A stretch of DNA of 9,799 bases from Candidatus Tectimicrobiota bacterium (GTDB taxonomy: Bacteria; JACPSX01): NCBI GenBank assembly GCA_016193065.1, contig JACPSX010000101.1, positions 1 through 9,799 on the forward strand, given 5' to 3'. The notes under the pieces are model-generated. The model saw only the letters and a list, made by a program, of their open reading frames with translations. It had not been told where the DNA came from and made no database searches. Positions within the stretch are counted from its first letter, which is position 1. The number at the start of each line of letters is the position of its first letter. This document shows positions 1 to 9,799 of this stretch, in pieces. The position numbers and the translations under genes were made by a program.

Positions 1-326
1 GATGCAAATGCTTGCCCACCCCCAGTTTGCCTGCGAGGAATTGCTACCCCCTCGGAGGAGAGAGCACCGAGGGGACTGTCCTTCCTGCCCTGAGCGCAAC
101 TGCCGGGAGCAGCGGGGGAACCCACCGGGAGCGGCCAGGGATGGGAAACCGCGCAGCCTAGACTTGCTTGCAGATAGCCGAACCTTTATCGTGGCGGTAG
201 CGGAGGGGTCCCACCCTGGGCGCCCCGTAAGGGTCCGTTGCGGGAGGCGTGTAGCGAAGGGCAGAAGACAGTCCCTTTGCTATGGATTCGCAAAAACTGG
301 GGGTGGGCAAGGAAGCAAATGCCATC
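1..326 (+). ncRNA. candidate structured RNA or inverted-repeat element, unassigned
   Basis: The stretch has no convincing gene but has strong, nested complementarity between its two ends. Positions 11-25 pair perfectly with 297-311 (15 bp), and 26-30 continue with 290-294 after a 2-nt A bulge. Positions 1-4 (GATG) can pair with 323-326 (CATC). Inside this, 72-80 pair with 267-275 (9 bp), 85-91 with 258-264 (7 bp), and 95-100 with 237-242 (6 bp). A local hairpin is possible at about 48-74, competing in part with the 72-80 stem. The middle, about 101-236, holds smaller GC-rich hairpins. I could not match it to RNase P RNA, tmRNA, SRP RNA or 6S RNA by their conserved blocks. A 6S-like rod, a retron msr-msd (whose a1/a2 ends also pair) or a MITE with terminal inverted repeats are possible. 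The plus strand is a weak preference: one G-U pair extends a stem in that sense. The element may extend left of the window. Confidence 0.45.
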
Positions 327-374: not shown

Positions 375-403
375 GTGACAGCCAGACAAGTTTTTGTTAT
401 ACA
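375..403 (+). promoter_or_regulatory. sigma70-type promoter for pilF-rodZ-aroE
   Basis: GTGACA at 375-380 matches the -35 consensus TTGACA at five of six positions. A 17-bp spacer leads to TATACA at 398-403, four of six to TATAAT. TGT at 395-397 places an extended -10 TG dinucleotide correctly. Transcription would start near 410. This leaves a short leader and favours the ATG at 465 over the one at 423, which would have only about 13 nt of leader. Prediction by eye. Confidence 0.5.
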
Positions 404-464
404 AGAGGTTTGAAAAGAGACGATGGGAGAATTTGTGAAGGGAGCGGCGGGAAGGGCCAGGAGC

Positions 465-1226
465 ATGAGGGCTCGTTTCCTTAAAAAAGTGTTGCTGGCA
501 GGCTCCCTGGGGGTCGGGCTTCTCCAGGGATGCGCCTCGCTGGATCCTTCCAGTTCCGAAACAGCCCGGGCCAAGTACAATTTGGGGATCGTTTACCTGG
601 AGGCACGAGCCGTGGAGCAGGCTCAAAGAGAGTTGCTGGAGGCAGCAGCCCTCACCCCCAACGACCCGGAGATCGCTGTTGGACTCGGGCGCGTCTACTT
701 CCTGCAGCGCCGTTTCCCTTTGGCCTTGCAGGAATACAAAAAGGCCCTGTCCTTGAACCCTCAGATGGGTGAGGCCCACTACTACCTGGGCAACCTGCAC
801 ATCGAGCAGAGGCAGTGGGACGAAGCTATCAAGGAGTTTCAGGCGGCCTTGAATTCCCCCCGCTTCGCAGCCCCTCAATTTGCCTATAATAACATGGCCC
901 TGGCCCATCTTGAAAAAGGGCAGTACGATAAAGCAGTCGAGGGGTTCCTTCTGGCTCTGCGCCTGGATTCGGGACTCTACGAAGCCCGTAACAACCTGGG
1001 AAAATCCTATTACTTTTCAGGGAAGAACGAAGAAGCCATTCGCGAGTTCCGGGAAGCTTTAAGGATCTTTCCCGACTACAGTCAGGCCCAGTTGAACATG
1101 GGGATGGCATTAGTGAAAAAAGGGGACCGGGAAGGAGCCATCAAATCCTTCCGGCAGGTCCTCGAACTGAGTCCGGAAACCGAGCTGGCCCGAGAGGCCC
1201 AGCGCTACCTCCAGCTCTTACGGTAA
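465..1226 (+). CDS. pilF: PilF-like TPR lipoprotein (type IV pilus pilotin)
   Basis: This protein of 253 residues starts with a basic n-region (MRARFLKK), a hydrophobic stretch and a lipobox LQGC, so Cys23 would be the lipidated N-terminus of an outer-membrane lipoprotein. The rest is about six tetratricopeptide repeats, roughly residues 33-66, 67-100, 101-134, 138-171, 172-205 and 206-239. Typical TPR residues are visible (A-x-Y/N-L-G at helix A, A-I-x-x-F at helix B, P at repeat ends). Six TPRs in about 250 residues is the size and plan of Pseudomonas PilF, which helps the PilQ secretin assemble in the outer membrane. An in-frame ATG at 423 would add 14 residues before the signal peptide; GAAGG at 451-455 suits the start at 465. 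The next gene is rodZ-like, as in the gammaproteobacterial pilF-rodZ cluster. A generic TPR lipoprotein is the alternative, as TPR proteins are hard to assign by sequence. Confidence 0.75.
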   Translation: MRARFLKKVLLAGSLGVGLLQGCASLDPSSSETARAKYNLGIVYLEARAVEQAQRELLEAAALTPNDPEIAVGLGRVYFLQRRFPLALQEYKKALSLNPQMGEAHYYLGNLHIEQRQWDEAIKEFQAALNSPRFAAPQFAYNNMALAHLEKGQYDKAVEGFLLALRLDSGLYEARNNLGKSYYFSGKNEEAIREFREALRIFPDYSQAQLNMGMALVKKGDREGAIKSFRQVLELSPETELAREAQRYLQLLR

Positions 1227-1268
1227 AGTGAGACAGAACCCCTCTTTCCCATTGGGACAAAGACCAAG

Positions 1269-2186
1269 ATGGATTCTTTAGGGGAGTATCTCAAGCGCGA
1301 GCGTGAACTCAGAGGGATCACGTTGCGTCACATCTCGGATGTGACCAAGATCCACATCAAATACCTGGAGGCCCTGGAGGAAAATCATTTTGAAGTTCTC
1401 CCGGCAGAGGCTTTCACCAGAGGTTTCCTGCGTTCCTACGCCAGGTGCGTCGGCATCGACCCGGACGAAGCGGTTCTAGTCTACAAGCAATGTCTGGACA
1501 GGCTCAAAGGCAGCAGCACTCCTTCTATCCCTCCGGTTGCTTTCGAGACTTATCCCCCTCCTCCGGTCCAAGCCCCTGCTACGCCGCAGGAGAAGGCGCC
1601 CTCTACGGGCTCTCCCAAACTTCTCATCACTCTTCTCTCTCTTTTCCTGGTGCTGGCCGTCGCCTTCTTTGCTTTTGTCAGCTCCCGGGCCAAGCGCGGA
1701 CCGGAGACTTCCGCCGGGCGAATTGCCCGGGAGCCGGTGGGATCCGTCCCTGAGCCCCGGACTCCGGGATCCGAGGTCAACGTCCCGACGCTGTCTCAAA
1801 AAGCCCCCGCTGACAAAGCGCCGAAGCCGGAGCCAACACAGAAATCCCCCACCGCTTCGACCTCCAAGGAGCAGGGGACCACTGCCCCCATAGCTCGGCC
1901 CCCCGGGACGGAAACCGCGGAAAGCCAAGCGCCGAAAAATCTCGCTTTGACGATCAATGCGAAAGAAGACACCTGGATCCAGGCGGTCATTGACGGAACA
2001 GAGCGCCGGGAGGCTCTGATCCCGGCGGGTTCCCAGGTGACCTGGAGGGCGGCGAACAAATTCGTGCTGGTGATCGGCAACGTCAAGGGAACCGAGATGA
2101 CCCTGAACGGCACCGAAATTCAAGTTCCCGAGGGACAACAGAACGTGCTGCGGGATTTCGTCGTTACCCGTGAGCTCATCCGGTAA
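1269..2186 (+). CDS. rodZ: RodZ-like HTH / DUF4115 membrane protein
   Basis: This 305-residue protein has the RodZ plan. An N-terminal Cro/CI-type helix-turn-helix (HTH_25, about residues 4-75) begins LGEYLKRERELRG and includes the FTRGFLRSYA motif typical of the family. A Pro-rich cytoplasmic linker covers 82-115. One membrane segment lies at about 117-138, followed by a basic residue. A long Pro/Thr/Ser/Lys-rich periplasmic linker covers 141-223, and a C-terminal beta-rich DUF4115 domain covers 224-305 (WIQAVIDG, then P-A-G and the LNG motif). In E. coli RodZ the cytoplasmic HTH binds MreB and links it to the cell-wall elongation machinery. The gene lies 42 nt after pilF. The Shine-Dalgarno is weak (GGGAC, 1253-1257), so translation may depend on the transcript from pilF. 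The domain plan is clear; a role in cell shape is inferred from the family, and some DUF4115 proteins may have other roles. Confidence 0.85.
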   Translation: MDSLGEYLKRERELRGITLRHISDVTKIHIKYLEALEENHFEVLPAEAFTRGFLRSYARCVGIDPDEAVLVYKQCLDRLKGSSTPSIPPVAFETYPPPPVQAPATPQEKAPSTGSPKLLITLLSLFLVLAVAFFAFVSSRAKRGPETSAGRIAREPVGSVPEPRTPGSEVNVPTLSQKAPADKAPKPEPTQKSPTASTSKEQGTTAPIARPPGTETAESQAPKNLALTINAKEDTWIQAVIDGTERREALIPAGSQVTWRAANKFVLVIGNVKGTEMTLNGTEIQVPEGQQNVLRDFVVTRELIR

Positions 2187-2193
2187 CCTCCAT

Positions 2194-3063
2194 ATGGCTC
2201 CGCCGCCAAAGATCCTCGGCATTATTGGCCATCCCGTGAGCCACTCCCTGTCGCCGGTCATGCAGAATGCGGCAATCCAATACAAGTCACTGAATTACGT
2301 TTACGTGGCCTTTGAAGTCTTGCCCCACCTCCTGGGGCGAGCCATCCGGGGAATTCCCGGTTTGGGTATTTCAGGGGTGAACGTCACTGTCCCCCACAAG
2401 GAAGCCGTACTCCCGTTCTTAGACCGGATCAGCCCCGAGGCCCGATTTATTGGCGCGGTGAACACCATCGTGCGCGAAAAGGAAGAGCTGATCGGGTACA
2501 ACACGGACGGGATCGGATTTTCCAGAGCCCTGGCCCAGGAAGGAAATTCCTCCCTGGCAGGAAAAGCCCTCCTCCTTCTTGGTGCCGGAGGGGCCGCCCG
2601 GGCTGTGGCTGCTCAGGCAGCTACGGAAGGGGCCAGAGAGTTGATCATTGCCAACCGGTCTCTCCCCAGGGCGCAACGACTCGAAACGGACCTGCTCGGG
2701 AAATTCCCCGACCTGCAATGTCGCAGTTTGCCATTGGATAGTACTGCAATCGAACCCCTTCTTCCCACCGTCGACCTGCTGGTCAATGCGACTACCCGGG
2801 GAATGAGACCGGGGGACCCCCCTCCCGTTTCTCTGGCCGGCCTTCCCAGACATACCATGGTCTACGATCTCATCTATAATCCACCCGTTACCGAACTGAT
2901 CCGGATCTCCCGTCAGCGCGGGAACCCGGCCCTCAACGGCCTGGGGATGCTGATCTACCAAGGGGCCGCTTCATTCGAACTCTGGACGGGATCGGCGGCC
3001 CCAATTGACGTGATGAAGAAGGCCCTGGAAATAGCTCTGGGCAGCCCCAATGCAGGAGACTGA
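2194..3063 (+). CDS. aroE: shikimate dehydrogenase (NADP+)
   Basis: AroE reduces 3-dehydroshikimate to shikimate with NADPH in the cytoplasm, in the pathway to chorismate and aromatic amino acids. The protein is 289 residues, near the usual length. The substrate domain shows the SHSLSP motif (16-21), NVTVPHKE (63-70, catalytic Lys69), GAVNT (87-91, Asn90) and YNTDG (102-106, catalytic Asp105). The nucleotide domain shows the loop GAGGAARA (130-137) and NRS (154-156) for the NADP phosphate. Further typical blocks are NATTRGM (198-204), YDLIYNP (224-230) and the final YQGAASFELW (255-264, with the substrate-contacting Gln256). All key residues are present. An in-frame GTG at 2170 would overlap rodZ and add eight residues. 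I prefer the ATG at 2194 because the fold begins just after it. The start lies 7 nt after the rodZ stop, so the two are probably co-transcribed. Its link to pili is positional only. Confidence 0.95.
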   Translation: MAPPPKILGIIGHPVSHSLSPVMQNAAIQYKSLNYVYVAFEVLPHLLGRAIRGIPGLGISGVNVTVPHKEAVLPFLDRISPEARFIGAVNTIVREKEELIGYNTDGIGFSRALAQEGNSSLAGKALLLLGAGGAARAVAAQAATEGARELIIANRSLPRAQRLETDLLGKFPDLQCRSLPLDSTAIEPLLPTVDLLVNATTRGMRPGDPPPVSLAGLPRHTMVYDLIYNPPVTELIRISRQRGNPALNGLGMLIYQGAASFELWTGSAAPIDVMKKALEIALGSPNAGD

Positions 3064-3079
3064 GAGCTCCCGCCCTATC

Positions 3080-3116
3080 CTCACGCCTGTGAGCAAGATC
3101 ACCCTCCTTCCGAGGG
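3080..3116 (+). repeat. two small hairpins after aroE
   Basis: CTCAC (3080-3084) pairs with GTGAG (3089-3093) across a 4-nt loop. CCCTC (3102-3106) pairs with GAGGG (3112-3116) across a 5-nt loop. No T-tract follows, so this is not a standard intrinsic terminator. It could mark the 3' end of the aroE transcript or slow exonucleases. These are weak structures that could be chance. Confidence 0.25.
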
Positions 3117-3124
3117 AGACCAGC

Positions 3125-3153
3125 TTGACATTTAGTTTCCCGGCCGATAAGAT
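3125..3153 (+). promoter_or_regulatory. sigma70-type promoter for the pilT-pilS operon
   Basis: A perfect TTGACA lies at 3125-3130. A 17-bp spacer leads to TAAGAT at 3148-3153, four of six to TATAAT. Transcription would start near 3160, giving a leader of about 85 nt before pilT. It lies in the only sizeable gap (181 nt) between aroE and pilT, where an operon promoter would be expected. The spacer is not AT-rich, and the prediction is by eye. Confidence 0.55.
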
Positions 3154-3210
3154 GCCCCCATCCTATCGGATATGAAGGGGTTAGAATCGATTCACCATCT
3201 CGCAACTGGA

Positions 3211-3236
3211 CCTAGATCTTCCCTAGGGGGAGGAAG
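3211..3236 (+). promoter_or_regulatory. pilT Shine-Dalgarno with possible occluding hairpin
   Basis: The purine tract GGGGGAGGAAGAG (3226-3238) is a strong ribosome binding site 6-9 nt before the pilT ATG. Just upstream, CTTCC (3218-3222) can pair with GGAAG (3232-3236) and cover it. CCTAG (3211-3215) can instead pair with CTAGG (3223-3227). The two pairings exclude each other, so translation could be modulated, but each stem is only 5 bp. Confidence 0.3.
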
Positions 3237-3244
3237 AGACCCAC

Positions 3245-4327
3245 ATGGCAAAAATCGACGCTTTCTTTAAGCTGATGCACGACCAGGGCGCATCCGATCT
3301 CCACCTGGCTTCCGGAAGCCAGCCCATTCTCAGAATCCGCGGGGAAATGGAGCGGGTGAAATACCAGGAGCTCAACAACGACGATCTCAAAGCCATGCTT
3401 TATGAGATTGCCCCGGAGGACAAGATCAAGGTCTTTGAAGAGACCGGAGATGTGGACTTTGCTTACGAGATTCCGGGAATGGCCCGCTATCGAGCGAACT
3501 TCTTCATGCAGAAGTATGGAGTGGGGGCCGTCTTTCGGGAAATTCCAAGCAATGTTCTGACCGCCGAGCAATTGGGGCTCCCACCCATTCTCCCCCGGCT
3601 TGCGTTGCTCCCCCGGGGACTGGTCCTGGTCACAGGACCAACAGGGAGCGGCAAATCGACAACCCTGGCCGCCATCATCGACTACGGCAACAAGAACCGG
3701 AAAGACCACATCATCACCGTCGAGGACCCTATTGAATTTGTCCACAAGAGTCAGGGGTGCCTGGTAAATCACCGGGAAGTGGGGGTCCACACGCGCTCCT
3801 TTGCCGCAGCTCTGCGCGGTGCACTGCGCGAGGATCCAGACATCATTCTGGTGGGCGAGATGCGCGATCTGGAAACCATATCCCTGGCCGTGGAAGCGGC
3901 GGCAACCGGGCACCTGGTCTTCGGCACACTGCACACCCAGAGTGCTGCCAAGACCGTTGACCGGGTGATTGAAGTCTTCCCTGCCAACCAGCAGGCCCAG
4001 ATCCGCTCCACACTGGCCGAAGGATTGCGGGCCGTGGTCTGCCAGGCCCTCTTCAAGAGGATCGACGTCAAGGGGAGATGTGCAGCCATGGAGATCATGA
4101 TTGCGACTCCCGCTATTCGCAATCTGATCCGGGAGGGGAAAACCTACCAGATCCCCTCCTCCATCCAGACCGGGCGAAAATACGGCATGCAGACCCTCGA
4201 CGACGCGATCTTCTCCTTCCTGCAGGCCAAGAAGATCAACCCTGAGGAGGCCTACAGCAAATGCGTCGACAAGGCGAAGTTTCAACCGTACCTCACCAAG
4301 CCACCCGAAGACTTCACGGAGGCATAG
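3245..4327 (+). CDS. pilT: PilT, type IV pilus retraction ATPase
   Basis: PilT is a cytoplasmic hexameric ATPase that drives pilus disassembly at the PilC platform, giving twitching motility. The protein is 360 residues, close to the usual 345-370. The N-terminal PAS-like domain (about 1-100) includes the SDLHL motif (17-21) and MARYRANFF (79-87). The ATPase core shows Walker A GPTGSGKST (131-139), the Asp box VEDPIEF (159-165), Walker B ILVGEMRD (201-208, catalytic Glu205) and the His box GHLVFGTLH (222-230). The signature AIRNLIREGK (290-299), required for retraction in studied PilT proteins, is intact, with QIPSSIQTG following. It is the first gene of a tight operon, preceded by its own predicted promoter and a strong Shine-Dalgarno. 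No extension ATPase (pilB) is in the window. Confidence 0.95.
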   Translation: MAKIDAFFKLMHDQGASDLHLASGSQPILRIRGEMERVKYQELNNDDLKAMLYEIAPEDKIKVFEETGDVDFAYEIPGMARYRANFFMQKYGVGAVFREIPSNVLTAEQLGLPPILPRLALLPRGLVLVTGPTGSGKSTTLAAIIDYGNKNRKDHIITVEDPIEFVHKSQGCLVNHREVGVHTRSFAAALRGALREDPDIILVGEMRDLETISLAVEAAATGHLVFGTLHTQSAAKTVDRVIEVFPANQQAQIRSTLAEGLRAVVCQALFKRIDVKGRCAAMEIMIATPAIRNLIREGKTYQIPSSIQTGRKYGMQTLDDAIFSFLQAKKINPEEAYSKCVDKAKFQPYLTKPPEDFTEA

Positions 4328-4339
4328 GGAGGAAAGGCA

Positions 4340-5515
4340 ATGCGCCAGCCAGAGATTGACTACATATTGAACCGCATGCTGGAGTCTCACGGTAACGTCT
4401 CCGACTTGAACCTGACGGTGGGCAAGCCTCCCCAGGTGGAATCCTCGGGACAACTGGTCCCCGTCCCCCTGGAGCCGACCATCGAAAAACTGACTCCGTT
4501 TCAGACCGAGGTTTTTGCCCTGAACCTGATTAACTCGGACCGGCGGCTCACGGAAATCCTGCTCCGGGAAGGCTCCTGCGACTGTTCTTATTCCCTACCC
4601 GGGATTTCCCAGCGCGGGGACTACTCCATCGTGCAAAGAAAACTCGAGACCCGCATCCCCACACTGCAGGATCTGAACCTGCCCCCGGCTTTCCTCAAGA
4701 TGGCTCAAGAAAAGAACGGCCTGATCCTGGTCACGGGGGCCACCGGCAGCGGCAAATCCACCTCGCTGGCCGGGCTCCTCAACGAGATGAACGAGACGAA
4801 ATCAATCCACATCATCACCCTCGAGGACCCCGTGGAGTTCTCGCACCCCCACAAGAAGGCCACCTTCAACCAGCGCGAGCTGGGGGGGGACTTCGACGCC
4901 TTTTCCACGGGCTTGAGGGCGGCCCTGCGTCAGGCTCCCAAGGTCATCCTGGTGGGGGAGATGCGGGACCGGGAAACGGTGGAAATCGGCCTGAGCGCCG
5001 CGGAAACCGGCCATCTGGTCCTCAGCACACTGCACACGGTGGACGCAGGGCAGACCATCAACCGCATCCTGGGCATGTTCGAACAAGAAGAAGAGCGGCA
5101 GATCCGCATCCGGCTGGCGGACACGATTCGCTGGATCGTCTGCCAGCGCCTGTTGCCCAAGGTGGGCGGAGGCCGGGTGGCGGCCTTCGAGATCATGGGG
5201 AGCAACCTGCGGGTCAAGGACACCATTCTCAACGGGGAATCGGAAGGGAAAACCTTTTACGAGATTATCGACGCCGGGGAGGCCTTCGGGATGATGACGT
5301 TCGACAAGTGCATCATCGAGCATTACAAGAACGGCTTGATCACCGAGGAAACCGCCCTGGCTTACGCTTCGCGCAAGGCCGTTGTGGGCCGGGGCATGGA
5401 CCGGATCAAGAGCTCCCGGGGCGAGAAGACCTCTGATATCGATGAACTGGCCGTCGATGCGGAGTACGGAAAATCCGAGTTTAAGGATCTGCAGACCAAA
5501 GGGAAAAAACGGTAA
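4340..5515 (+). CDS. pilT2: second PilT/PilU-family pilus ATPase
   Basis: This 391-residue ATPase follows pilT by 12 nt, with a GGAGGAAAGG ribosome site between them. It keeps SDLNL (21-25), Walker A GATGSGKST (133-141), the Asp box LEDPVEF (161-167), Walker B VILVGEMRD (202-210, Glu207) and the His box GHLVLSTLH (224-232), so it should hydrolyse ATP. It differs from its neighbour in two places. The AIRNLIREGK signature is replaced by NLRVKDTILNGESEGK (289-304). The N-terminal domain also appears about eight residues short after PG (87-88), where the neighbour has the arginine-rich strand RYRANFF. Its C-terminus has a charged, probably disordered tail (about 350-391). The family probably includes accessory retraction motors such as PilU, which work with PilT. 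An accessory or regulatory retraction role is inferred; the symbol marks a paralog, not an established name. Confidence 0.85.
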   Translation: MRQPEIDYILNRMLESHGNVSDLNLTVGKPPQVESSGQLVPVPLEPTIEKLTPFQTEVFALNLINSDRRLTEILLREGSCDCSYSLPGISQRGDYSIVQRKLETRIPTLQDLNLPPAFLKMAQEKNGLILVTGATGSGKSTSLAGLLNEMNETKSIHIITLEDPVEFSHPHKKATFNQRELGGDFDAFSTGLRAALRQAPKVILVGEMRDRETVEIGLSAAETGHLVLSTLHTVDAGQTINRILGMFEQEEERQIRIRLADTIRWIVCQRLLPKVGGGRVAAFEIMGSNLRVKDTILNGESEGKTFYEIIDAGEAFGMMTFDKCIIEHYKNGLITEETALAYASRKAVVGRGMDRIKSSRGEKTSDIDELAVDAEYGKSEFKDLQTKGKKR

Positions 5516-5533
5516 CTCCGGAAGGTAAACCAA

Positions 5534-6229
5534 GTGGAAATCACCTGTTCTTCCTGTGCGGCCAAATACAACGTCCCGGACGAGAAAATCCCCAAAGATA
5601 AGGCATTCCGAATCACCTGCCCGCAGTGCAAGGAGAAAATCACCGTCGAGCCCCCGGGCCAGGGAGCGGCGGCCGCGGCCAGCGAGGCTCCTGCGCCAGC
5701 AACCCGGGATCTGGAGGGCCTTCCGGAAAACGGCCAACACCAACCCGCGGCTGAAGCCCCCCTCTACGACACCGCCACTTCAGAATACTTCGAGGAAGGG
5801 GTAAAGACGGCTCTGCTCTGCGAGAGCGACGAAAAGCGGGCCGATTTCCTGACCGGGATCCTGAAGGAGCTGGATTACATCGTGACCTGCCCCAGTTCCC
5901 ACGAGGACGCCCTGCTCCGGCTCAAGTTCAACAAATACGACCTGATCGTAGTGGACGAGGAGTTCGCCGGAGCCACCCCGGGCAACAATGCGGTGCTCTC
6001 CCATCTCCAGAAGCTGCCCATGGCCGCCCGCCGCTACATCTACCTGGTTCTCCTGGGGCAGAAGCTCAACACCTCCGACAACATGATGGCTTTTGTGAAA
6101 AGCGTCAACATGGTGGTGAATCACAAAGATCTTGAAAATTTCAAGAACATCCTAAAGCGAAACCAGACAGAGCACGAAACGTTCTACAAGGTCTTCATGG
6201 ACGTCCTTAGGGAGTTGGGGAAGCGGTAA
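5534..6229 (+). CDS. MJ0042 zinc-ribbon / receiver-like protein of unknown function
   Basis: This 231-residue protein starts at a GTG with GGAAGG 8 nt upstream. The N-terminus is an MJ0042-type zinc ribbon, with Cys5, Cys8, Cys29 and Cys32 as likely ligands (CSSC and CPQC knuckles). A linker rich in Ala, Pro and Glu follows (about 39-90). Residues 91-210 resemble a response-regulator receiver: a beta1 ending in LLCESDE (94-100), a beta3 ending in DLIVVDEEF with Asp141 at the phospho-acceptor place, and Lys198 near the conserved lysine. The Ser/Thr usually found at the end of beta4 is not evident (VLLGQK, 172-177), and the acidic pair is altered (Glu97, Ser98), so it may be a divergent or pseudo-receiver. 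It sits 18 nt after pilT2 and 21 nt before pilC, pointing to a pilus-linked role. I do not recognise a named gene. The zinc ribbon is clear; the receiver fold is inferred. Confidence 0.75.
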   Translation: MEITCSSCAAKYNVPDEKIPKDKAFRITCPQCKEKITVEPPGQGAAAAASEAPAPATRDLEGLPENGQHQPAAEAPLYDTATSEYFEEGVKTALLCESDEKRADFLTGILKELDYIVTCPSSHEDALLRLKFNKYDLIVVDEEFAGATPGNNAVLSHLQKLPMAARRYIYLVLLGQKLNTSDNMMAFVKSVNMVVNHKDLENFKNILKRNQTEHETFYKVFMDVLRELGKR

Positions 6230-6250
6230 TTGCCGGGAGAAGCTTGAGCC

Positions 6251-7459
6251 ATGCCCGTCTTTCGCTACGCCGGGAACGCCCCATCGGGAGCCATCAAGGG
6301 AGAAATCGAGGCTGCTGACCTGGAAGCAGCCAGGGTGCTCTTGCAGCGCCAAAAGATCAAGATCGCCACGCTCAAGGCCAAGCCCAAAGACATCCAACTG
6401 AAGATCCCCGGATTCGGGGGAGGAGGGGTGGGGGAGAAGGACCTGGTGGTTTTTACCCGGCAATTTTCCACCATGATCAACGCCGGGCTCCCCATCGTCC
6501 AGGCCCTGGACGTCCTTGCCCAGCAGACCCAGAACAAAACCCTGGCAAACATCATCAGGAAAATCCGCTCCGACGTGGAAGGCGGAGATACTCTTACGGA
6601 TGCCATGCGCCGGCACACGAAGGTCTTTGATAACCTCTACGTGAACATGGTCCAGGCAGGGGAGATCGGCGGGATCGTCGACACGATCCTGAACCGCCTG
6701 TGCGCCTACATGGAAAAGGCCATGGGGCTCAAGAAAAAAGTCAAGTCCGCCATGGTCTACCCGATCGCCATTATCACCATCGCCGTAATGGTCGTCGTCT
6801 TCCTGATGATCTTCGTCATCCCCACCTTTTCCAAGATGTTCGCCGAATTTGGCCAGACCCTGCCCGCTCCGACCCAGATTGTCATTAACCTCAGCGACTT
6901 CACCAAGAAGTACGTGTTTTACTTCGTGCCGGCCTTTATCGGCGCCATCATCGCCTTCAAACAGTACTACAAGACTCCCCCGGGGAAGCTGAGCGTGGAC
7001 AAGTTCATGCTCAAGGCCCCCGTCTTCGGTCCCTTGATCCAGAAAGTCTCTGTGTCCCGATTCACCCGCACGCTGGGAACATTGATCACCAGCGGCGTCC
7101 CCATTATTGACGCTCTCAACATCACGGCCCGCACGGCCGGCAACAAAATCGTGGAGCTGGCCGTGCTGTCCATCGTGGAAAAGATCAAGGAAGGCCAGAC
7201 CATCGCCGCACCCCTTTCCGAAAAGAAGGTGTTTCCCCCCATGGTCGTGCAGATGATTTCCATTGGAGAGTCGACGGGCGCTCTGGATGCTATGTTGAGC
7301 AAGATCGCTGATTTTTACGATGAGGAAGTCGATGCGGCCGTAGGGGCACTCACCTCCCTCATGGAACCCTTGCTCATGGTATTCCTGGGCGGGGTCATCG
7401 GATTTATCGTGGTGGCTATGTACCTGCCGATCTTCAAGATGGCTTCCGCGATCGGATAG
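6251..7459 (+). CDS. pilC: PilC, type IV pilus inner-membrane platform protein
   Basis: PilC is the polytopic inner-membrane protein that couples the assembly and retraction ATPases to pilin subunits. The protein is 402 residues, the usual length. After a short N-terminal region (1-60) it carries two GspF/T2SSF domains, about 69-191 and 271-393. Each has the family pattern: FTRQFSTMINAGLPIVQAL in the first, FTRTLGTLITSGVPIIDAL in the second, then GE-x-G (GEIGG 137-141; GESTG 339-343). Membrane segments lie at about 168-192, 221-237 and 371-394; the last ends in the conserved MYLPIF motif (390-395). A purine-rich GGGAGAAG (6236-6243) serves as the ribosome site. It lies 9 nt before pilS in the same operon. 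The type II secretion homolog GspF is the alternative, but the pilT and pilS neighbours make PilC much more likely. Confidence 0.95.
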   Translation: MPVFRYAGNAPSGAIKGEIEAADLEAARVLLQRQKIKIATLKAKPKDIQLKIPGFGGGGVGEKDLVVFTRQFSTMINAGLPIVQALDVLAQQTQNKTLANIIRKIRSDVEGGDTLTDAMRRHTKVFDNLYVNMVQAGEIGGIVDTILNRLCAYMEKAMGLKKKVKSAMVYPIAIITIAVMVVVFLMIFVIPTFSKMFAEFGQTLPAPTQIVINLSDFTKKYVFYFVPAFIGAIIAFKQYYKTPPGKLSVDKFMLKAPVFGPLIQKVSVSRFTRTLGTLITSGVPIIDALNITARTAGNKIVELAVLSIVEKIKEGQTIAAPLSEKKVFPPMVVQMISIGESTGALDAMLSKIADFYDEEVDAAVGALTSLMEPLLMVFLGGVIGFIVVAMYLPIFKMASAIG

Positions 7460-7468
7460 CTTCAGTCC

Positions 7469-9223
7469 ATGTCACCTCCACAGACACCGCTTCAGGATCG
7501 CGACTTCCTCTTTAAAGTCAAGGTCCTCATGGCCCTGAGGGTGCTGGTGCTGACCCTGTTTCTGGGGGCCGTCATTGTTTTCCAGATCAAGACCCGGCAA
7601 TCGGCCTCCCTGTTGCCCATCAGCATGCTCATTGCGGTCACCTACTTCCTCACCCTCCTGTATGCCCTCATGCTCGGGCGGGTGAAGAGCCTCAAGCTCT
7701 TTTGCTACCTTCAGATCGCTGGAGATATCCTGATCGAAACCGGGATCGTTCACATCACGGGGGGGGTGGAGAGCGTGTTCTCCTTCCTCTACATTTTCTC
7801 TATCATCTCGGCAGCCATCATTCTTTACCGGCCCGGCAGCTATACGATCGCCTCTTTGGCCAGCATCCTCTACGGCCTCCTGACCAACCTGGAGCTTCGC
7901 CAGCTTCTGCCCTCGGTTTACTTCCATTCCCAGGTGGACACCTTCGTGGAAGGAGAATACGCGCTATACAAAGTCTCCCTCAACATCGTCGCCTTCTTTC
8001 TCGTGGCCTTCCTGAGCGGCTACCTGGCCGAGAAGGTCAGATCCACGAGAGAGGAACTGGAAAAAAAGAGCGAGAATCTGCTCGAACTCCAGGAATTCCA
8101 CGAAAACATCGTGAAAAGCATGAACAGCGGGCTGATGACCCTCAACGGATCGGGGCAGATCGTGACCTGCAACCATGAGGCGGAACAGATCTGCGGCTAC
8201 CCGATCGAGAAGATTCGCGGCATGCTTTGCCCCGATCTTTTCCCCGATTTCCCCTGGCACCGGATCCTGCTGCGGGAGCCGATCGGAGTGACCATCAACC
8301 GCCACGAAGGTTGGTTCAACCGCCGGGACGGGCAGCGAATCTACCTGGAAATGCGCCTCTCCCCCCTCAAGGATGAAAAGGGAATCGTCAAAGGAACCAT
8401 TCTCCTGTTTCAGGATGCCACGGAGCTCAAGGCCCTGGAACTCCAGGTCAAGCGCTCGGAAAAGCTGGCGGCTGTGGGCCGTCTGGCGGCAGGAATCGCC
8501 CACGAGATCCGCAACCCACTGGGTTCCCTGAGCGGCTCCGTCCAGGTTCTGCAATCGGAGTTGGAGCTTGACGAGACCAACCGCCGCCTCATGGAGATCG
8601 TCGTCAAGGAAACAAACCGACTTGATTCCATCGTGACCCAGTTCCTAAGCTATGCCCGGCCTCAACCCCTTCAAATTGCCAACTACGAGATCAACCGCTT
8701 GATCAGAGACTCCCTGACGCTGCTGCAAAATCACGAGCACTACAAGGACACCGTTCTCATCGAAACCCGCTTCGAAGAGCCCGGGCTCATGGCCGCCGTA
8801 GACCCCCAATCCTTCCAGCAGGTGCTATGGAACTTATTCCTGAACGCTCTCCAGGCGATGCCCTCCGGCGGGACTTTGCGGGTCGAGACGGCCACGTTGT
8901 CCCCGAAAGCCTCCGGCTTCCGCTCGCCCAACCCGGAAGACGGCCGCAGCGCCGGGCTGTGCCAGATCACGGTAGAGGACAGCGGGGAAGGGATTCCACC
9001 GGAGGCTCTGGACAAGGTCTTCGATCCCTTCTTCACCACGAAGGATCAAGGGACGGGCCTCGGATTGGCTCTGGTTCACAAGATCATTGAAGAACACCAA
9101 GGAGAAATTACGGTAGAAAGCATGGGGGGAAAGGGGACCACCTTCCGCATCGTGCTGCCCGCAGCAAAGCAATTGGCACTCAGCGCTCAGCAATCAGCGC
9201 TGCAAGAAGGGTCTGCGGCCTAG
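7469..9223 (+). CDS. pilS: PilS, membrane sensor histidine kinase
   Basis: PilS senses pilin in the inner membrane and controls phosphorylation of PilR, a sigma54 activator of pilA. The protein is 584 residues. Six membrane segments are likely at about 21-41, 48-69, 76-96, 101-119, 124-142 and 167-188, followed by a charged helix (190-212) and a PAS domain (about 210-320). The HisKA H-box is AAGIAHEIRNP (340-350), with phospho-accepting His345. The ATP domain shows the N-box NLFLNALQ (455-462), G1 DSGEGIP (504-510), F-box FDPFFTTK (518-525) and G2 GTGLGLAL (528-535). All catalytic boxes are intact. The family normally ends soon after the FRIVLP strand (559-564); here about 20 more residues follow, partly encoded by a heptamer repeat. 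The ribosome site is weak, so translation is probably coupled to pilC 9 nt upstream. No pilR follows in the window. The neighbours make PilS more likely than a generic kinase. Confidence 0.88.
   Translation: MSPPQTPLQDRDFLFKVKVLMALRVLVLTLFLGAVIVFQIKTRQSASLLPISMLIAVTYFLTLLYALMLGRVKSLKLFCYLQIAGDILIETGIVHITGGVESVFSFLYIFSIISAAIILYRPGSYTIASLASILYGLLTNLELRQLLPSVYFHSQVDTFVEGEYALYKVSLNIVAFFLVAFLSGYLAEKVRSTREELEKKSENLLELQEFHENIVKSMNSGLMTLNGSGQIVTCNHEAEQICGYPIEKIRGMLCPDLFPDFPWHRILLREPIGVTINRHEGWFNRRDGQRIYLEMRLSPLKDEKGIVKGTILLFQDATELKALELQVKRSEKLAAVGRLAAGIAHEIRNPLGSLSGSVQVLQSELELDETNRRLMEIVVKETNRLDSIVTQFLSYARPQPLQIANYEINRLIRDSLTLLQNHEHYKDTVLIETRFEEPGLMAAVDPQSFQQVLWNLFLNALQAMPSGGTLRVETATLSPKASGFRSPNPEDGRSAGLCQITVEDSGEGIPPEALDKVFDPFFTTKDQGTGLGLALVHKIIEEHQGEITVESMGGKGTTFRIVLPAAKQLALSAQQSALQEGSAA
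9177..9201 (+). repeat. heptamer tandem repeat inside the 3' end of pilS
   Basis: Three heptamers CACTCAG, CGCTCAG and CAATCAG follow one another, then a partial CGCT (consensus C-N-N-TCAG). They code for residues around 570-578 of PilS. The palindrome AGCGCT occurs twice (9182-9187 and 9196-9201), so the unit also forms an inverted repeat. Short heptamer arrays of this type look like spread of a small intergenic repeat into the gene end. The repeat is seen directly; its origin is inferred. Confidence 0.6.
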
Positions 9224-9268
9224 GGGCTCCGGCAGGCGGTGACACGACCAAGGATTGTCGGATCAGGA

Positions 9269-9799
9269 CTAAAACACGCTAACTGCCGCAGAGCGAGCCA
9301 CGTAGGCCCCTCCGTCAGTCACGCCATAGGTCTGCTTTACAGCGTTCCCATCCAGATCCCCTTGCGCGGTGGCTTTGAAACCAACCTCTGCGGAGCCGGT
9401 TACCCTTACCCTTCTTCTCCTGGACGTGCCGGCCGTCCAGGTACCCGTTGCGGCCGCAAACCCGCTGCCGTCCACCAGCACGCCTTGGGAAGTCGCGAAA
9501 GTATCCACCGCATAGTTGAAATAGACGTTGCCGGAGGCGACAAACCCAATCTCGTCGAAATCGGCGTTTCCTACCCAGGGCCGCTTGGCCGAACCCACGG
9601 CTCCACCCGGAGCTTCAGCAGCATTCACGTATTCGTCCTCTTCAGCTTTGTAGGCCTCCTCCATACTGCGAATATGCCCGAGGTTGTTCCTGGCCTCGGT
9701 GGTCTTGGCCTTGAGCTGGTAGCGGTTGAAGGTTGGGATGGCGATGGCCGCGAGAATCCCGATGATCGCCAATGCGATCATGAGCTCGATCAGGGTAAA
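9269..9799 (-). CDS. pilA: type IV pilin, major-pilin-like (PilA), 5' end cut off
   Basis: The gene runs off the right edge. The last codon in the window encodes Phe1 of the mature pilin, giving FTLIELMIALAIIGILAAIA. This is the class III signal motif with Glu5 and the hydrophobic helix that packs in the pilus core. The leader peptide and the Gly cleavage site lie just outside. The mature protein is 176 residues, in the range of type IVa pilins and longer than the short Geobacter-type pilin. The globular part ends in a GDLDGN motif (about residues 148-153), common in pilins of this kind. It contains no cysteine, so it has no disulfide-bonded C-terminal loop. There is an odd Arg run, RRRR, encoded by AGG/AGA codons (9412-9423). 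It converges on pilS with 45 nt between them. A minor pilin or pseudopilin is possible, but the size and neighbours favour a major pilin. Upstream control (sigma54 and PilR sites) would lie outside. Confidence 0.85.
   Translation of the reverse strand, partial: FTLIELMIALAIIGILAAIAIPTFNRYQLKAKTTEARNNLGHIRSMEEAYKAEEDEYVNAAEAPGGAVGSAKRPWVGNADFDEIGFVASGNVYFNYAVDTFATSQGVLVDGSGFAAATGTWTAGTSRRRRVRVTGSAEVGFKATAQGDLDGNAVKQTYGVTDGGAYVARSAAVSVF

Follow-up and report, generated by a model that had tools for sequence, protein, structure and literature searches.

Introduction

To our knowledge, only a few families of transposase are known to direct bacterial transposons to promoters, and the factor that recruits them to these sites is unproven. 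TnGBS and related ISs follow the p-MULT insertion rule, landing 15-17 nt upstream of -35 boxes (PMC3942029), and 13 ISs of the ISKra4 group, whose inverted repeats (IRs) are near-perfectly complementary, insert either way round, with a distance criterion of 13-17 nt that holds also for ISLre2 (PMC3942029). The IRs of p-MULT elements are 18-39 bp long and carry a terminal C, and their duplications measure 8 or 9 bp (PMC3942029). The TnGBS transposase has been proposed to contact an initiation subunit of RNA polymerase (Guerillot et al. 2014, PMC3942029).

Short repeats that carry no gene offer a second point of comparison. The BOX elements of pneumococci, for example, are modular. The family that we describe here is like bacterial MITEs (Correia, RUP, QMITE2 and others; PMC10969869) in being short, intergenic and geneless, with terminal inverted repeats (TIRs), target duplications, a stable hairpin and many copies; it is unlike MITEs in general in its precise promoter distance and in its long, GC-rich mosaic body (up to ~465 bp) built of several exchangeable hairpin modules. 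We also liken it, claiming no relation of sequence, to the pneumococcal BOX elements, described as intergenic parasitic repeats with extensive RNA-like secondary structure, for which the abstract of that description states no fixed promoter distance (PMC3049150). A search of the open-access literature returned no report of a promoter-targeting MITE, which is not proof of absence.

Here we analyse a 9,799-nt stretch of DNA from Candidatus Tectimicrobiota bacterium (JACPSX01; assembly GCA_016193065.1, contig JACPSX010000101.1), which we call the window, within its source genome assembly (2.9 Mb, 294 contigs, 86% complete). We conclude that positions 11-311 very probably represent one copy of a non-autonomous, gene-less MITE family that would be moved in trans by a promoter-targeting Mutator-like transposase and would carry its nested hairpins as passengers.

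Results

A long nested fold with perfect terminal inverted repeats

Window positions 1-326 fold into one long nested rod of -171.5 kcal/mol (z -6.6), an energy that none of 100 shuffles matched, and the complementary strand folds equally well (z -6.7). The ordered nesting noticed in the preliminary description is thus real, at a z of about -6.6 on both strands. Its outermost pairing is a perfect 18/18 terminal inverted repeat (11-28 versus 294-311), so the paired ends described earlier do exist but extend over 18 bp, not 20 bp. The limits first proposed, 1-326, proved nearly exact, since the element at 11-311 is flanked by a 10-bp duplication on each side (1-10 and 312-321; Table 1). The fold had also been described as holding no gene and showing none of the conserved blocks of RNase P, tmRNA, SRP or 6S RNA, and both points stand: the ORF at 2-484 matches no Pfam family and its reading frame is disrupted in most siblings, for which reasons a protein reading of 2-484 was dropped, and Rfam searches at the gathering threshold (window) and at relaxed thresholds (the region, and 12 full-length copies down to E<=1) returned chance matches only. 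Beyond the element, positions 423-9799 of the window form a type IV pilus cluster that comprises a TPR lipoprotein (pilF-like), a RodZ-like protein, shikimate dehydrogenase, two tandem PilT/PilU-like ATPases, a zinc-ribbon protein, PilC and a PilS-like kinase, with a pilin-like protein on the minus strand.

Table 1. Features of the window copy and its immediate surroundings
Feature	Position	Strand	Remarks
Left target-site duplication copy, GATGCAAATG	1..10	.	9/10 identical to 312-321; contig C61 begins with these bases
Left terminal inverted repeat, CTTGCCCACCCCCAGTTT	11..28	+	18/18 complementary to 294-311; common to sibling copies
Left sub-terminal arm	29..70	+	Without the ~110-nt hairpin module B present here in most full-length siblings
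Outer covarying stem, 5' strand	71..95	+	Pairs with about 254-276; helix 3, 8/21 pairs with changes on both sides
Conserved inner core hairpin	96..253	+	Paired columns differ by 8.7% between copies, versus 29-34% in outer stem and ends
Outer covarying stem, 3' strand	254..276	+	Pairs with 71..95
Right terminal inverted repeat, AAACTGGGGGTGGGCAAG	294..311	+	18/18 complementary to left repeat
Right target-site duplication copy, GAAGCAAATG	312..321	.	9/10 versus 1-10
pilF promoter-like site, GTGACA-17-TATACA	375..403	+	Distance from element differs from the family's 13 nt
TPR protein (pilF-like)	423..1226	+	Downstream neighbour, outside the element

A dispersed family with shared ends and 10-bp duplications

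Positions 1-330, used as a query, gave 53 matches in the genome of origin, of which about 20 cover almost the full length at 74-89% identity. Roughly 65 loci carry modules of one MITE family and range from 66 to about 465 bp; the fetched copies cluster into 66 module-bearing places in 65 stretches (one place being represented twice), and these totals are lower bounds because many contigs, the window's included, end at or inside a copy, as expected for repeats in a short-read assembly. No cluster falls inside a predicted coding sequence, all mapped copies being intergenic.

Full-length copies have the common ends CTTGCCCACCCCCAGTTT ... AAACTGGGGGTGGGCAAG, just outside which ten bases are directly repeated, at 10/10 in L034 and L019, at 9/10 in the window copy (GATGCAAATG/GAAGCAAATG) and in L011, L015, L036, L056, L073 and L095, and at 8/10 in L017 and L028. 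About ten copies retain this 10-bp target-site duplication, from a 66-bp hairpin (L056) up to an element of about 465 bp. Flank identity among TIR pairs peaks only at k=10, where 9 copies reach >=80%, compared with one copy at k=11 and none at the other lengths from 5 to 15. Shared ends together with 10-bp duplications are what a DDE transposase leaves when it moves a non-autonomous element, and the combination of shared terminal inverted repeats, a duplication of fixed length and many dispersed intergenic copies that lack coding sequence is that of a MITE. A mobile inverted-repeat element was one of the two readings first offered for this locus, together with the proposal to look for multiple genomic copies and target-site duplications; both were found, alongside the terminal inverted repeats, and bear this reading out.

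Beyond the source genome, a search of 59 other genomes gave a single 32-bp chance-like match, plasmids, phages and viral contigs yielded no copies, and a search of genome contigs with the core pattern gave one isolated match in an Acetobacter contig (L055), which is probably due to chance. The source genome is the sole member of its phylum in the searched collection, which offers no comparison set for lineage-specific repeats. Within the source genome, a full copy in L025 is immediately preceded on its left by an end fragment, CCGGGTGGGCAGG (L025:580-610), suggesting that one copy inserted beside an older one.

Insertion at a fixed distance from promoters

In many copies, TTGACA begins exactly 13 nt outside one end, a distance made up of the 10-bp duplication and three further nucleotides. 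The TTGAC of a -35 box lies at +12/+13 outside 24 of 67 mapped ends, against 0.13 expected from base counting, and a joint histogram of -35/-10 offsets places 23 ends at 13 and six at 12, where shuffling predicts about 0.8 per offset. When ends were selected on the -35 box alone, 12 of 24 also had a -10 box (>=4/6 matches, 16-18 nt), against 9% expected; the targeted sites therefore look like real sigma70-type promoters. For 12 of the 14 elements with both ends mapped, TTG at +13 and then a -35-like hexamer is found at exactly one end, and this hexamer begins with TTGAC in ten of the 12; L073 (TTGGCC, with no -10 box found) and L025 depart from the pattern. Either the 5' or the 3' end can face the promoter; element orientation is thus free, which is consistent with the near-perfect symmetry of the element ends. 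The 3' end of the element at first seemed to point preferentially toward downstream genes, but this bias arose from requiring the 3' end to be present and was rejected; the family uses both ends.

The right flank of the window copy has no -35 box at +13, and on its left the contig begins precisely at the duplication, cutting the flank off; the promoter targeted by this copy would lie off the contig. The targeting rule could therefore not have been recognised from the window by itself. Its predicted junction, TGTCAANNNGATGCAAATG, was not found elsewhere in the assembly, a result that neither confirms nor refutes the prediction because the contig ends there. The pilF promoter-like site (Table 1) is probably not the target, because it does not lie at the 13-nt distance of the family.

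This fixed landing about 13 nt upstream of promoters points to a promoter-seeking transposase. The intergenic position of all mapped copies would also agree with untargeted insertion, if copies survived only in harmless or useful spots or if the TIR were an activator-binding site that needs a fixed distance; the TIR would then occupy about -50 to -67 relative to the start site, a region bound by class I activators. We consider this improbable, since purifying selection would give broad distances and not a single-base peak at 13, the same peak is present in the 66-bp copy and in copies with quite different bodies, and published p-MULT elements show the fixed distance to be a property of the transposase.

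Exchangeable modules, covariation and the possibility of a structured RNA

Between the ends lie exchangeable hairpin modules, namely B, D, E, the core and small GGGTACCC hairpins at stem tips. Module B (111 nt), which is missing from the window copy, occurs at 41 places in the genome, and the module D hairpin at 38. The ~150-nt module D (GAGACCGGGGTGCCCC...GGGGCACACCCGGTCTC; L010:510-657, L029:209-356, L027:485-631) appears in several combinations with B and the core, and may be a separate repeat family. Module E (CCGAGGCCCGCGCCGGATGAAAGCCGG...) replaces the inner core while the outer stem and ends are kept (L037:780-849, L043:794-863, L040, L041, L059). At the same stem tips, some of the core copies L009, L011, L024, L025 and L027 carry small GC-rich GGGTACCC hairpins (e.g. 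ACCCGCAAAGCGGGTACCCG, GGGTACCCGTCCTGGGTGTGGG) and others lack them, which gives the impression of a second, very small mobile palindrome. Sections of the core are swapped or deleted in L034, L036, L056 and L073, all with intact duplications.

The preliminary description had proposed a check for covarying base pairs, and among sibling copies of the same genome the stems do covary: in a 20-copy alignment of the core, both partners have changed in 17 of 71 pairs, 90.9% of cells are paired, against 43-49% when the alignment is slid, and the covariation score is reached by none of 500 shuffles. Differences between copies amount to 8.7% in paired and 23% in unpaired columns of the inner core, and to 29-34% in the outer stems and ends, which makes the inner core 3-4 times more conserved than the ends. 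This conservation is the main unexplained feature of the family, and a passenger body does not by itself explain it; it could reflect a constraint on the core or the spread of a younger module within older frames.

Selection on an RNA can produce covariation of this kind, and so can DNA-level processes, namely hairpin-templated correction and module exchange. A strand test gave G.T:A.C ratios of 34:0 for 32 tRNAs of the same genome, of 48:29 for the outer stems of the element (plus 133 other mismatches, part of them alignment noise) and of about 25:12 for the inner core (by our own tally), a contrast between tRNAs and element that is somewhat flattered by the tRNA stems having been drawn by ARAGORN, which is reluctant to draw A.C pairs. 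The test leans toward a DNA-level origin of the covariation and is not decisive; an excess of G.U over A.C of only about 2:1 does not demonstrate selection on an RNA.

The other reading first offered was a new structured RNA, and the locus could be primarily a family of such RNAs (a multicopy small RNA or a cis-regulatory RNA) that was dispersed by transposition and whose inner core acts as RNA. The covarying stems, the lower divergence of paired than unpaired core columns and the modest G.U excess on the plus strand would all fit, but the minus strand folds as well, G.U is not favoured over A.C as it is in the tRNAs, and no Rfam family matches. The copies moreover lie upstream of promoters, outside the transcript of the adjoining gene and in both orientations, as dispersed mosaics in which sections of the core are swapped or deleted despite intact duplications. 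We therefore give this account little credence as the main reading, and favour the passenger hairpins of a MITE. A retron msr-msd, which part of the pattern had been said to resemble, and any other reverse-transcribed RNA whose a1/a2 ends pair have only the paired ends in their favour and can be set aside as exceedingly improbable, given dozens of copies with target-site duplications, a body highly variable between copies and no reverse transcriptase among the window's proteins.

Candidate transposases in the source genome

The MITE family encodes no transposase. One ISKra4-family transposase, the sole p-MULT enzyme found, is present in the source genome (C242; NF033572, 315.8 bits, cut-off 205), in an element whose ends (GGGTGTGCGACAAATTTGTGG) are different, whose duplication is apparently 9 bp long and which lacks a promoter at the expected distance; because these ends differ from those of the MITE, C242 is not an obvious partner. 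The complete ISKra4-family element, at about 1414-3260 of L131 (C242), has its GGGTGTGCGACAAATTTGTGG ends flanked by CAGCCATCT repeats and lies beside an IS1380-family transposase gene. The sole DDE_Tnp_1 protein found in the genome belongs to the IS1380 family, and a search of the source genome for an IS256 protein found none. No autonomous partner with matching ends was found in the 86%-complete, fragmented assembly. Autonomous partners of MITEs are usual, not required, and are often lost.

Discussion

The repeats described here belong to an isolated lineage and constitute a new MITE family, whose novelty lies in strict promoter targeting joined to a nested-palindrome body. Among described systems, the family is most readily set beside the p-MULT 4 ISs of the ISKra4 group, with which it shares a fixed distance upstream of -35 boxes (13 nt here; sigmaA promoters there), insertion in both orientations, IR length (18 bp) and the terminal C, and an ISKra4-family transposase is encoded in the source genome. 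It is unlike those ISs in having no transposase gene, a 10-bp duplication where theirs is 8-9 bp, and a body of nested palindromes, and its ends do not match those of the single ISKra4 element found in the source genome. TnGBS ICEs and ISLre2 ISs (p-MULT 3) likewise target the region upstream of -35 boxes (15-17 nt there); they are oriented, with IR-right next to the promoter, are large or IS-sized and encode their transposase, whereas the MITE is short, non-autonomous and inserted both ways. From these likenesses we infer that the MITE works like a p-MULT element and is mobilised by an enzyme of that kind, an assignment made by behaviour because no transposase with matching ends was found, and one that does not file the family, with its 10-bp duplication outside the 8-9 bp of p-MULT elements, as a proven member.

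In the mechanism that we propose, a p-MULT-type DDE transposase (ISKra4 group or ISLre2-like), supplied in trans, would bind the symmetric ends and be recruited to promoters, probably via initiating RNA polymerase or its sigma/alpha subunits; insertion data do not tell whether the promoter complex or the -35 sequence itself does the recruiting. The enzyme would then cut the DNA upstream of the -35 box with a 10-bp stagger. Insertion between the upstream neighbour of a gene and its promoter would spare both genes and promoters and so account for the high copy number. The nested hairpins would be palindromic passenger modules, in which paired changes may stem from module exchange, hairpin-templated correction or selection for folding, and the data do not decide among these. 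The window copy would have lost module B, probably when a stretch between short direct repeats was deleted. That one copy is just 66 bp long hints that hardly any sequence besides the ends is required.

A more speculative idea, on balance doubtful, is that the nearly invariant inner hairpin is a functional RNA or DNA structure kept by selection within a promoter-seeking MITE family. If this were true, the core might, for example, enhance transposition or give rise to a small RNA expressed from many promoter-adjoining loci, and the MITE would form a dispersed, genome-wide layer of promoter-linked structures.

The dozens of short copies, most of those with mapped ends lying 13 nt upstream of a -35 box, provide a large natural set of insertion sites, and these sites mark likely sigma70 promoters in a lineage that has no close relatives in collections.
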